Below, piece after piece: positions 41,811-46,273 of a stretch of DNA of 64,000 nucleotides (positions within the stretch are counted from its first letter, which is position 1; the number at the start of each line of letters is the position of its first letter). This stretch comes from Natrinema sp. CBA1119 (lineage in GTDB: Archaea > Halobacteriota > Halobacteria > Halobacteriales > Natrialbaceae): the NCBI RefSeq assembly GCF_002572525.1, contig NZ_PDBS01000001.1, positions 3,534,001 to 3,598,000 on the forward strand, read 5' to 3'. A program made the translations under genes and the position numbers. The notes beneath the pieces were generated by a model that saw nothing but the letters and a program-made list of their open reading frames with translations, was not told where the DNA came from and searched no databases.

Positions 41811-41833
41811 ATCGAACTCCGATGAATCTCACG

Positions 41834-42625
41834 ATGAAGATTCTCGTTACGGTCAAAGAGGTAGCGACCGTCGAAGACGAGTTCGAAATCGAGGGAACCG
41901 AAATTGCCGACCAGTACCTCGGTGCCGATCTCAATGAGTGGGACGACTACGCGATCGAAGAGGCCGTCCAGCTCCAGGAAGACGGTATCGCCGACGAAGT
42001 CGTCACCGTCACCATCGGTCCGGAAGAGTGCGAACAGACCATCCGACAGGCCCTCGCAAAGGGCGCCGACCGCGCCGTCCGCGTCTGGGATGACTCCCTC
42101 GAGGGCGTCGACCTGCTCGACGTCAACGCCAAGACGGAGATCCTCAGCGCCGTCATCGAAGCGGAAGATCCCGACCTCGTCCTCTCGGGCGTCCAGGCCG
42201 GCGACGACAGCTTCGCCGCGACCGGCGTTTCCGTGGCCGAGAACCTCGGCTTCCAGTGGGGCGCCGTCGTCAACCACCTCGAACACGACCTCGAGGAGGG
42301 CGTCGCCTCCGTGCGACGCGAACTCGAGGGCGGCGTCGAGGAGTTCACCGAACTCGAGCTCCCGGCCGTGTTGACGATCCAGACGGGGATCAACGAGCCT
42401 CGCTACGCCAGTCTCCGCGGTATTCGGCAGGCACAGCGGAAAGAACTCGACGTCAAGGCCCTCGCCGATATCGGCGTCGACGAGAGCACTATCGAATCCG
42501 AACTCGACCTGACGGCCATGTACGAGCCCGAAAGCGAGAGCGACGCGACGTTCTGGGAGGGCAGCGCCGACGAAACGGCGTCTGAGCTGGGAGAACTGCT
42601 CCGCGACAAGGGGGTGGCACAATGA
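41834..42625 (+). CDS. etfB: Electron transfer flavoprotein subunit beta
   Basis: A 263-residue protein with the ETF-beta N-terminus M-K-I-L-V-T-V-K-E-V, L-N-E-W-D-D-Y-A-I-E-E-A-V-Q-L, and the AMP-binding / recognition loop region V-L-S-G-V-Q-A-G-D-D-S. Family signature P-A-V-L-T-I-Q-T-G-I-N-E-P-R-Y-A-S-L is near residue 180-197. It pairs with the alpha subunit, whose ATG overlaps its stop by 4 nt (ATGA). The heterodimer takes electrons from the acyl-CoA dehydrogenases of this window and passes them to an ETF:quinone oxidoreductase, not encoded here. Confidence 0.95.
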   Translation: MKILVTVKEVATVEDEFEIEGTEIADQYLGADLNEWDDYAIEEAVQLQEDGIADEVVTVTIGPEECEQTIRQALAKGADRAVRVWDDSLEGVDLLDVNAKTEILSAVIEAEDPDLVLSGVQAGDDSFAATGVSVAENLGFQWGAVVNHLEHDLEEGVASVRRELEGGVEEFTELELPAVLTIQTGINEPRYASLRGIRQAQRKELDVKALADIGVDESTIESELDLTAMYEPESESDATFWEGSADETASELGELLRDKGVAQ

Positions 42626-43578
42626 CGGACGTCCTCGCGGTCACCGACCACCGCCGCGGCGACCTGCGCGACGTCAGCTACGAGATTATCACCGCCGGGC
42701 GCGAACTCGCCGACGAAACCGGCGGCGACCTCCACCTCGCGGTCATCAGCGGCACCGTCGACGACTTCGCCGACAAACTCAATCGCGACGGCGTCGACGC
42801 TATCCACACCGTCTCCCACGGCGAGGAGTTCAACCACGACGTCTACACGCAGGCGATCACGCAGCTCTACGACGACCTCGCCCCGCAGTACGTCCTGACG
42901 CCCAACAGCGTCAACGGGCTCGACTACGCCCCCGCCGTCGCGAACCAGCTCGATCTCCCCGTCGTCACCGACACGATCGACCTCGAGACTGACGGCGAAA
43001 CGCTCGTCGCCACCCGCGAGATGTACGGTGGGAAGGTCGAGACGACCAACGAACTCGAGGGCGAGGCGGTCGTCACGATCCGAAGTGCCGAATGGCCCCA
43101 GGCCGAAGGCACCGGCGACGCCTCGATCGAGGCCTTCGACGCCGACATCGACGAGGACGCCATCGGCTCGACGGTCAGCGGCTTCGAAGAGGTCGGCGGC
43201 GGCGACGTCGACATCAGCGAGGCCGAACTCCTCGTCTCGATCGGCCGCGGGATCGAAGAAGAGGAGAACCTCGACCTGATCCGTGATCTGGCGGACGCGC
43301 TCGGTGCGACGCTGTCCTCGTCCCGACCGATCGTCGACAACGGCTGGCTGCCCAAGAACCGGCAGGTCGGTCAGTCCGGAAAGGTCGTCACGCCCGACGT
43401 CTACATCGCCATCGGTATCTCCGGCGCAGTCCAGCACGTCGCCGGCATGAAGGGCTCCGATACGATCGTCGCGATCAACACGGACCCCAACGCGCCGATC
43501 ATGGACATCGCCGACTACGCGATCGTCGACGACCTCTTCGATGTCGTCCCTGAACTCATCGACGAGTTCGAAGGCTGA
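42622..43578 (+). CDS. etfA: Electron transfer flavoprotein subunit alpha
   Basis: A 318-residue protein. The C-terminal FAD domain carries the signature [35 protein letters not shown] and [12 protein letters not shown], all intact. It overlaps etfB by 4 nt, so translation is coupled. The last 12 codons are duplicated at 43666-43703. A T-rich terminator follows at about 43606-43611. Confidence 0.96.
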
Positions 43579-43605: not shown

Positions 43606-43611
43606 TTTTTT
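43606..43611 (+). terminator. T-tract terminator after etfA
   Basis: Six T following the repeat GTCGATTCGAGTCGA, 27 nt after the etfA stop; the usual archaeal oligo-T terminator form. Confidence 0.5.
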
Positions 43612-43619
43612 GCGCGAGT

Positions 43620-43871
43620 GGTCGCGAACAGCGTGAGCGACCCGAACGGAAAAAGGTGGTCGCACGTCGTCCCCGAACTCATCGACGAGTTCGAAGGCTG
43701 AGCGGTCGTCCCGCGAGCGAACGTGGTTCGAGAGAGCGTCGCTCTCTCGTGACTGAGCGAATCGAAGATTCGCGATGTCCGCGAACGCGAAGCGTTCGCT
43801 TGATGACGAAAGACGCGAAGCGTCTTTCGAACGGCAGTGAGCGGTCTTCCTCGTGAACGAAGTGGACGAGG
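43620..43871. repeat. Tandem array of short hairpins with 3-nt loops
   Basis: Six inverted repeats follow each other. They are 43620-43642 (8 of 10 paired, loop AGC), 43729-43749 (9-bp stem, loop GTC), 43757-43773 (7 bp, loop GAA), 43781-43799 (8 bp, GAA), 43807-43829 (10 bp, GAA) and 43849-43871 (8 of 10, GAA). Stems differ in sequence but keep the loop. Two contain GCGAAGC exactly, known as an exceptionally stable DNA mini-hairpin. No gene is seen in 43704-44029. Confidence 0.75.
43666..43703 (+). repeat. Direct repeat unit 2 (copy of the etfA tail)
   Basis: 37 of 38 bases equal to 43543-43580, including the stop codon, with unrelated DNA before it. Confidence 0.9.
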
Positions 43872-44029: not shown

Positions 44030-44142
44030 TATAGTAGCCACTGAAACGAGTTACATACTGATCGGACAGCTGTCGTTCGATCAGGTGTGCAATGATTTTC
44101 AGTGGCTACTATCGGTTACAGTGACGTTCAGTGGCTACTATA
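44030..44142. mobile_element. MITE-like element copy 3 with an extra terminal repeat
   Basis: 44030-44112 is a complete copy (TATAGTAGCCACTGAAA ... TTTCAGTGGCTACTAT). It is followed within 30 bp by a second right end, GTTCAGTGGCTACTATA at 44126-44142, as left by a nested insertion or partial duplication. Confidence 0.8.
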
Positions 44143-44269: not shown

Positions 44270-46273
44270 TTACTCTGCCAACACTCTCTGGGCCGAACTG
44301 GAGACGGCGCTGTTTGCCACCGCTAACAGGGAGAGGATACCCGCTGTTGCTGCGATCTGAACCACGAGCGGACCCGCGATTGCGAGGGCAGAGAGGACGA
44401 GATAGATCGCTCGTCGCGGAAGGCCGATCCGTTCGCCCCCGTCGTAGCCGATCGTGGCGACCGAGAGTGCGACGACGCCAGTAAAGACGAAGACAACGGC
44501 AACGATCGTCTCCGGGAACGACCAGGAAATAAGCGACTGGTTCGCGATGAACGAGTAGGGAATGACGAACCCGGGTGCACCGATACGGAGCGCCTGTTTA
44601 CACGCTGCCGTAAAGCTAGCGCCCGATATCTGCGACCCGATCGCCACGGCGACGGCAACGGGCGGCGTGATCGCAGAAAGCATCGCGAAGTAGAAGACGA
44701 ACATATGGGCCGTAAGCTGGTCGACGCCGAAGCTGACCATCGATGGTGCCACGAGGATGACGACGAGAATATACGCTGCGGGCGTTGGCATCCCGAGTCC
44801 GAATAGAACGCTCGTTACCATCGAGAGAACGAGGAGCAAGATGAAAATCCCAGCGGCGAGATCGAGCATCTGCGTACTGATCTTCTGACTGAGCCCCGTC
44901 TGATTGACCAGGCCGAGGACGACGCCGAGCGATGCGAGCATCCCGACGAGCGGGGCCATATCTACTGCCCCCTGTCTGAAGCCATCTATCGTCTGTTTCG
45001 TCGTGGCGACGGCCGTTCCCGACTCGAGACCGTCGACGACGAAGTTCCGGAGGTACATCGTGACGACCAGCGAGATGATCGTATACAGACCCGCTCCCAG
45101 CGGGGTGAGCTCTAGTACGACGAGCGTGTATATGAGGACGAAGAGCGGGACGCTAAAGTGGATCCCCTCGGCGATCACACTTCTGTCGAACGTTCCCCGT
45201 TCGGGTACCGTCCATCCGAACCGGAGTATAACGAGGTGCACCGCGACGAGGACGCTGAAGTAAAAGAGAAGCGCCGGAATCAGTCCCGCTTGGATGACAG
45301 TGAGGTAGGAAACCCCGAGAATATCGGCCATCAGGAAGGCCGCGACGCCCATCACCGGCGGCATCATCTGGCCGCCGCTGGATGCAACGCTCTCGATCGC
45401 GGCCGCATAGTCCGGCCGGACGCCCTGGTCTTTCATCATCGGAATCGTGAAGCTTCCGGTCGTTGCCGTATTCGCGGCCGCGCTCCCGGTGATCGAGCCC
45501 ATGGCCATACTTCCGAGCACGGCAACGTGAACGACGCCACTGTGGAACACTTTCCGTACTTCACGGCTGATCTGCGTGATGAAGTCCATCAGGCCGTAGG
45601 CTTTCGCCATACCGGCGAACATGATGAAAATCGCGACCCAGGTCGTCCCAACGCCGAAGATAAAGCCGTACGCGCCGCTGAGACCGATCGCACCCTCGCG
45701 GCTGATCTGTTCCCAGCTCATTCCCGTGTGTCTAAATATCCCCGGGAACCAGGGGCCCGCAAATGCGTAGAACACCGAACTCACCACGACCAACCCGATC
45801 GATTTTCCGTACGCCCGCCACGTCGCGTCGATCACGAGATAGATTATCAACCCGCCGACGATCAGATCCAGTTGCGTCCAGCCGAGGATCGATGCCTCCT
45901 CCTGCAGTCGAGTGAAGTGGAATTCGACGTATCCCGCTGCGAATACGGATGCGAGGGCTAACAACCCATAGACGAACGGGTTCAGTCGTTGGACGAGCGA
46001 ACGGACGGACGACGGAACGGTGACCCACGACTGCGTCTCTCCGTCGTCAGTCGATCGCGCCGAAGACCCCGTTTCGTTCGAGACGGTCGACCTGATCTGT
46101 AGGAGGTAAAACAGGGTCAGTCCCGTCCCGAGGAATATATTCGAGTATCTGAGTCTCGACATCGGGTATTCGTACGCGTAGTAGATCGTGAATAGCGTGA
46201 GCAGCACGCCGATACCGTAGATAGCGGAGCTTAGAAACCGGTCCGTCTTCGTATCAGGGGAAGCATTCATCAT
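44270..46273 (-). CDS. TRAP transporter fused permease (system 3)
   Basis: A 667-residue fused DctQM membrane protein. It has the same signature set as system 2: N-T-A-T-T-G-S-F-T-I-P-M-M-K-D-Q-G, S-S-G-G-Q-M-M-P-P-V-M-G-V-A-A-F, L-F-G-L-G-M-P-T-P-A-A-Y. The start M-M-N-A-S can be 46273 or 46270. Its receptor gene ends 32 nt upstream. Systems 2 and 3 are recent duplicates compared with system 1, which implies related substrates. Confidence 0.95.
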   Translation of the reverse strand: MMNASPDTKTDRFLSSAIYGIGVLLTLFTIYYAYEYPMSRLRYSNIFLGTGLTLFYLLQIRSTVSNETGSSARSTDDGETQSWVTVPSSVRSLVQRLNPFVYGLLALASVFAAGYVEFHFTRLQEEASILGWTQLDLIVGGLIIYLVIDATWRAYGKSIGLVVVSSVFYAFAGPWFPGIFRHTGMSWEQISREGAIGLSGAYGFIFGVGTTWVAIFIMFAGMAKAYGLMDFITQISREVRKVFHSGVVHVAVLGSMAMGSITGSAAANTATTGSFTIPMMKDQGVRPDYAAAIESVASSGGQMMPPVMGVAAFLMADILGVSYLTVIQAGLIPALLFYFSVLVAVHLVILRFGWTVPERGTFDRSVIAEGIHFSVPLFVLIYTLVVLELTPLGAGLYTIISLVVTMYLRNFVVDGLESGTAVATTKQTIDGFRQGAVDMAPLVGMLASLGVVLGLVNQTGLSQKISTQMLDLAAGIFILLLVLSMVTSVLFGLGMPTPAAYILVVILVAPSMVSFGVDQLTAHMFVFYFAMLSAITPPVAVAVAIGSQISGASFTAACKQALRIGAPGFVIPYSFIANQSLISWSFPETIVAVVFVFTGVVALSVATIGYDGGERIGLPRRAIYLVLSALAIAGPLVVQIAATAGILSLLAVANSAVSSSAQRVLAE

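Follow-up and report, generated by a model that had tools for sequence, protein, structure and literature searches.

The core of the hairpin array behind etfA in Natrinema sp. CBA1119 is one dispersed repeat, probably a transposase-less mobile DNA element resembling the SMR-A small mobile repeats of Haloquadratum walsbyi, in which a second unit (B) is nested within a first (A). The window, meaning the whole stretch of 64,000 nucleotides that was analysed, is C1:3534001-3598000 of this genome (G000), and its features are listed in Table 1. In unit A, a TGATGA linker connects two inverted triloop hairpins, and the ends are TNGTTCGA...TCGAACNA; the unit is represented by two-hairpin copies of 58-62 bp with the form TNGTTCGARAG...CTYTCG-TGATGA-CGARAG...CTYTCGAACNA. 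Four-hairpin copies, mostly of 105-115 bp, have an additional CTGAGC-hairpin-GCGAGGTCCGC-hairpin-GCTTGA (unit B, about 51 bp) that splits the linker of A into TGA and TGA. Because A is found elsewhere without B (about 60 bp) and B alone interrupts a tnpA gene, B is considered a separate nested unit; in the window, A minus B is exactly 60 bp. The window copy has TGGTTCGA at its left end and TCGAACGG at its right end, and the deviation of the latter from the canonical TCGAACNA counts against the mobile-element reading.

Table 1. Coordinates of features at the etfA gene end, as positions in the window.
Feature	Position	Strand	Remark
etfB and etfA	41822-43578	+	
T6 tract directly behind etfA	43606-43611	+	upstream of the array
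Gene-end hairpin GGTCGC-GAACAGCGTGA-GCGACC	43620-43642	+	GGTCGC-GA-AC-AGC-GT-GA-GCGACC, tandem G.A type; outside the mobile element
Partial copy of etfA 3' end with stop codon	43666-43701	+	identical to the end of the etfA paralogue
Left half of host hairpin, CCGCGAGCGAACG	43711-43723	+	joined to 43835-43844 gives the motif CGAACGCAGTGAG
Putative type A mobile hairpin element	43724-43834	+	111 bp: 60 bp of A split by 51 bp of B; paralogues and orthologues with matching ends and linkers
hp1, CGAGAGAGC-GTC-GCTCTCTCG	43729-43749	+	
Putative type B element, CTGAGC-hp2-GATGTCC-hp3-TTGA	43753-43803	+	51 bp, in the linker of A between TGA and TGA
hp2, GCGAATC-GAA-GATTCGC	43757-43773	+	covariation supports
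hp3, GCGAACGC-GAA-GCGTTCGC	43781-43799	+	covariation supports
hp4, CGAAAGACGC-GAA-GCGTCTTTCG	43807-43829	+	
Right half of host hairpin, CAGTGAGCGG	43835-43844	+	pairs with the left half after element removal
Separate gene-end hairpin CCTCGTGAACGAAGTGGACGAGG	43849-43871	+	inner AC-GAA-GT; belongs to another repeated gene-end module
TRAP transporter gene	44270-46273	-	convergent with etfB and etfA

The six consecutive inverted repeats that an earlier, sequence-only reading had listed behind etfA (43620-43871) are all present, and two hairpins of the array contain GCGAAGC as it had stated, a sequence whose stability as a hairpin is known from published DNA hairpin work. The 64-kb window contains 15 perfect hairpins whose stem is 7 or longer and whose loop is 3 nt; the array has four of them within 110 bp and includes all three that have a GAA loop. 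Of 100 second-order Markov shuffles, 83 had at most one such hairpin in any 110 bp and the other 17 a maximum of two, and the number of GAA/TTC loops per shuffle had a mean of 0.37 and a maximum of 2. The hairpin array is real and far above chance. A search of the window against Rfam 15 gave no match above the gathering score. The view of the array as six independent hairpins was rejected, as four of them form a single dispersed element with fixed linkers. A search of the same genome with the intergenic region located imperfect copies of 43723-43832 at other sites, in which the linkers TGACTGAGC, GAGGTCC and TTGATGA are kept and the stems differ; hp3 is GCAAGACC-AAA-GGTCTCGC in the copy at C1:744509, GCGAAGTC-TTC-GACTTCGC at C1:2485096 and GCGAAACC-GAA-GGTTTCGC at C1:959783. 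Nesting goes deeper in L277 and L279, where more hairpin pairs lie within hp2 or the linker. The last hairpin of the array, CCTCGTGAACGAAGTGGACGAGG, has copies of its own module at C1:889141, C1:1243213 and C1:1605506.

A covariance model of unit B (R1) was made from the five ungapped copies and used to find further copies. In these five copies, which provide the cleaner test, 98.7% of cells are paired and 5 of 15 pairs have changed on both sides. Among 55 distinct copies, in an alignment that was fitted to the model and hence leans to structure, 98.4% of cells are paired versus 80.1% when shuffled, 12 of 15 pairs have changed on both sides, and both-side changes are seen in 144 cells versus 44 when shuffled, values that none of 500 shuffles reached. 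The covariation score was 0.455, and slid controls scored below 0.08. These counts exclude an alignment (A1) of the eight copies with four hairpins, in which hp1 was misaligned. The alignments indicate that the stems are kept by compensatory change, which supports the earlier claim of selection for structure; the kept GAA loop in that claim is only partly right. GAA is common in the array and its copies, but 71 of 127 triloops in 45 other copies differ, the counts being 56 for GAA/TTC (44%), 29 for GGA/TCC, 19 for AAA/TTT and 23 for others; in oriented copies, hp2 favours GAA or GGA, and hp1, hp3 and hp4 are mixed. The four hairpins are not of independent origin, being parts of one dispersed element. 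Arrays are present elsewhere among relatives and their stems co-vary, as the sequence-only reading would have it. Either strand, taken as single-stranded DNA, also folds well into the hairpins (z -3.8 and -3.1), and together with the compensatory changes this could suit a DNA-level structural site with a host function, such as a cruciform, nuclease or recombination site, in place of a selfish element; given the sporadic presence of the element at a given locus between species, such a site is a very unlikely explanation.

Comparison of occupied with unoccupied sites bears on how the mobile element, as it is taken to be here, came to lie where it does. With the element removed from the window, CCGCGAGCGAACG directly adjoins CAGTGAGCGG to make a canonical haloarchaeal gene-end hairpin of motif CGAACGNAGTGAG, and the joined flanks have no target duplication; an uninterrupted CCGCGAGCGAACGCAGTGAGCGAGCGG is present behind etfA of N. 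thermotolerans (L109). At a locus behind an AsnC-type gene compared across 28 Natrinema genomes, A plus B is present in G000, G004 and G022, A alone is present in G028, G012 and G016, and at least 15 of the 28 genomes have precisely empty sites, in which GCTG is followed directly by a sequence like CGGGC. An example of the uninterrupted cassette at this locus is TTTTGCGCTG immediately followed by CGGGCGCGGC in G023. The full and empty orthologous sites at this locus have no target duplication, and A and A plus B are located at one identical point. Insertion is the simpler reading of this precise presence and absence, which may also reflect precise excision.

Both units have also entered genes. 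Two tnpB genes (L258, L259) carry unit A in frame in the 3' end of their coding sequence, related tnpB genes (L252, L257) are without it, and unit B is in frame in an IS605 tnpA between VPK and YRR (VFVPK[SGETEGPADLAEQGSAQ]YRRSHL), two other TnpA of the same genome having CPKYR without unit B. As at G000:C8, R1 matches adjoin tnpA matches at G006:C1:3443122, G021:C2:335643 and G021:C1:1839699, which suggests that the tnpA with the in-frame insert of B has itself spread. G288 has A plus B precisely within the loop of the palindrome at the right end of an IS605 element, between GCCTCGGGG and CTTGACCCCGAGGC (L360, L361), and the uninterrupted form of this palindrome is found in L254. Of 42 distinct insertion sites, 41 have G immediately to the left and 39 have C immediately to the right, against a background of about 30% each. 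General targeting of hairpin loops was rejected because a strict test of flank pairing across the junction was negative over the 42 sites (mean stem 2.95 versus 3.14 when re-paired and 3.51 when shifted); it is only at particular sites that loops are clearly targeted. In principle the element could spread from one gene-end cassette to another by ectopic gene conversion, with no transposition-like step, which would accommodate both the many copies that lie in a related cassette, TTTTGCGCTG...CTCGGCAAAA, and the chimeric copies joined at shared stems (L217, L309), but apart from the G and C neighbours no flank homology is shared among the insertions in the etfA hairpin, in tnpA and tnpB and in IS605 ends, making this explanation unlikely.

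The host hairpin motif CGAACGNAGTGAG has 81 occurrences in the genome of the window versus none for the reversed control, and is present in all Halobacteriales genomes of a phylum sample and rare outside the order. An unbiased scan of 80 loci looked for intergenic hairpins having both a triloop and a 2x2 mismatch, and this mismatch was GA/GA in 34 of 115 per strand, the next type numbering 6; the triloop was GNA in 26 of these 34, and coding DNA had no GNA excess. An order-wide hairpin grammar is thereby observed, comprising a Watson-Crick outer stem, tandem G.A, a short inner stem and a GNA triloop, as at 43620-43642. This pattern fits tandem sheared G.A pairs plus a GNA triloop, a combination known from work on stable DNA and RNA hairpins. 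A literature search with 12-mers of the canonical motif found no haloarchaeal paper in the collection searched, nor was the order-wide grammar found described there.

Hairpins of the G.A type are denser between convergent genes (24 in 63.6 kb versus 30 in 242 kb of other intergenic DNA, as counted with a crude gene caller in 1.66 Mb of stretches from the same genome) and in relatives are often found 12-20 nt after a stop codon. Haloferax volcanii is known to have hairpins upstream of termination sites (PMC7237163), and the array follows etfA in a gap between convergent genes that also holds T tracts, so that the hairpins could be supposed to function in RNA as a transcription terminator or 3' stabiliser of the etfBA mRNA. 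That explanation is distinctly improbable: A and B are also inside coding sequences and IS605 ends, the T6 tract is upstream of the array, the same-genome paralogue is the only other of the fetched etfA loci to have a type A element behind it, and G.A hairpins in tandem gene gaps have no clear strand bias (sense to antisense only 9:7). The earlier suggestion of an mRNA 3' stabiliser is dispensable for the core of the array, because A and B units also sit in tnpA and tnpB coding sequence. The array does not have the layout of an intrinsic terminator of etfA, a gene-end hairpin with a T tract directly behind it: the T6 tract precedes it and no T tract directly follows hp4. A T stretch is a termination motif in Haloferax (PMC7237163), and T6 is likely the actual transcription terminator of etfA. 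Since the insertion is downstream of this tract, which is of the haloarchaeal terminator type, it probably has little effect on etfA.

Other repeats are found at these gene ends. The two etfA copies of the genome, one in the window (42622-43578) and the other at C1:1936406-1937359 (L101), encode proteins that are 100% identical, and the gene-end duplicate in the window is an exact match to the end of L101. In 10 of 30 Natrinema etfA loci, 30-36 of the 36 nt at the gene's own 3' end are repeated 77-163 nt behind the stop codon (the window, L102, L113, L114, L115, L121, L122, L124, L125 and L127); these copies often match the gene end of their own species, and would reflect gene ends that have repeatedly undergone tandem duplication or gene conversion. 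Units of 57-58 bp built around the CGAACGNAGTGAG hairpin are repeated in tandem, with four copies at L007:3568-3754 and six at L220 (C1:2668508-2668805). Such richness of haloarchaeal gene ends in tandem duplications is the attraction of a purely local origin of the array, in which a quasi-palindrome would have grown through template switching during replication and through repeat expansion, without any mobile element. Local template switching cannot explain dispersed copies in different genera that have common fixed linkers and exact ends at unrelated flanks, and a local origin is accordingly given hardly any credence.

The cassette TTTTGCGCTG-hairpin-CTCGGCAAAA...AAAAGCACTCCTCCTTCC, which is larger and dispersed among gene ends, contains T and A tracts (L201 and L206 in the same genome; L293-L316) and has the look of a terminator module working in both directions. 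TATAGTAGCCACTGAA is present three times, in inverted order (window 44030-44047, 44096-44113 and 44125-44142), and resembles the ends of a MITE or IS remnant. A near-identical PATE-like repeat of about 130 bp, GTGAACCGCCTCGGGGTCAAGTGGTTCGAGAG..., has A-type hairpins in its outer palindrome at L210, L211 and L212 (C8:437039, C1:3434831 and C1:415024). The repeat of about 130 bp ending in VKWFERATLSRHPENLRFSDDPEALGLLRR was considered as the end of a transposase gene, a reading rejected for want of a longer homologue in the genome; it was taken as putatively non-coding with A-like hairpins inside.

At E<=1e-6, R1 (the model of B) has matches in 76 of 195 Halobacteriales genomes and 40 of 66 genera; a single genome holds as many as 15 copies, and those within G369 include near-identical ones. 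Many Natrinema genomes have strong R1 matches. Haloarchaeal plasmids of six genera carry an element of R1 type; a search of IMG/VR viral contigs for the exact pattern gave no match.

The closest described counterparts are the SMR-A small mobile repeats HqIRS42, HqIRS43 and HqIRS55 of Haloquadratum walsbyi (Dyall-Smith et al. 2011, PMC3119063), three families mutually unrelated in sequence, about 110 bp long, with inverted terminal repeats, no target duplication and no coding capacity, found within IS605-type palindromes, and with a mobilisation called enigmatic (PMC3119063). The element described here is alike in length, A plus B and still more A alone being too short for a transposase gene, in its inverted terminal repeats (TNGTTCGA...TCGAACNA), in the absence of target duplication at full versus empty orthologous sites, and in insertion within near-terminal palindromes of PATE or IS605 elements (L360 and L361 compared with L254), many copies here lying elsewhere. 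It differs in being a composite chain of triloop hairpins with covarying stems, B nested in A, in its additional presence within coding sequence and host gene-end hairpins, and in a range that takes in much of the order. Placed by described features and not by comparison with the HqIRS sequences, it is classed as a variant of the SMR-A kind rather than as a member of one of the HqIRS families.

The suggestion of a REP-like element, made in the sequence-only reading, comes close to this interpretation. REP units have GTAG or GTGG 0-2 nt before a stem of 7-20 bp with a loop of 2-5 nt, and two inverted units make up a REPIN or BIME, which is linked to TnpA-REP (RAYT). The element here likewise has two inverted hairpins and matches in stem, loop, spacing and inversion, with a GTNG tetranucleotide two bases before each outer hairpin that resembles GTAG/GTGG (GTCG at one end, usually GTGG at the other); unlike REPINs and BIMEs, it has in-frame gene insertions and two nested unit types. 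Rickettsia palindromic elements are short palindromic sequences inserted in frame in protein genes, and can be likened by description alone to the in-frame inserts of units A and B, in another domain of life. PATEs and other elements derived from IS200/IS605 share palindromes near the ends and the absence of target duplication; PATEs differ in being without inverted terminal repeats, which the element here has, and it enters IS605 ends. Typical MITEs usually have target duplication, in contrast to the element here at the AsnC-type locus. ISPsy8, ISPa11 and ISPpu9, which target REP palindromes (PMC1525189), are alike in inserting in intergenic palindromes but carry a transposase gene. Only the IS200-type subclass 1.1 of TnpA-REP-related enzymes has been reported in archaea (PMC6006769).

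As judged from sequence comparison, the element exhibits dispersal, exact ends, precise presence or absence, no target duplication, a strong preference for a junction between G and C, kept stems and nesting. In the proposed mechanism, an enzyme provided in trans would recognise the end hairpins in single-stranded or extruded form, move the element and join its ends to a G-C step. The best-known precedent for such an enzyme acting in trans is an HUH (Y1) enzyme of the IS200/IS605 type, which is tentatively put forward as the mover. Searches for Y1_Tnp, which cannot distinguish RAYT from IS200, detected it in 21 of 29 Natrinema genomes and detected none in G004, G012, G023 and G028, all of which carry A or A plus B. 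Because several carriers are without a detectable Y1_Tnp, a resident IS200 TnpA is not needed for persistence of the element. A direct link to IS605 ends was rejected, the end hairpins beside tnpA and tnpB being unlike A or B. A more far-reaching and doubtful possibility is a haloarchaea-wide class of composite hairpin elements moved by undescribed hairpin-recognising machinery other than IS200 TnpA, which would insert at G-C steps without target duplication, and further elements would use the loops and linkers of earlier ones as their sites.

The 2011 description of SMR elements concerned a single species; to it are now added a related type with exact ends, a rule of G and C neighbours and a covariance model, full and empty orthologous sites in culturable species, and an order-wide distribution. 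What moves transposase-free hairpin elements of archaea thereby becomes directly testable, and the data explain part of the hairpin-rich gene ends of haloarchaea, sequence that might otherwise be wrongly read as terminators or non-coding RNAs.
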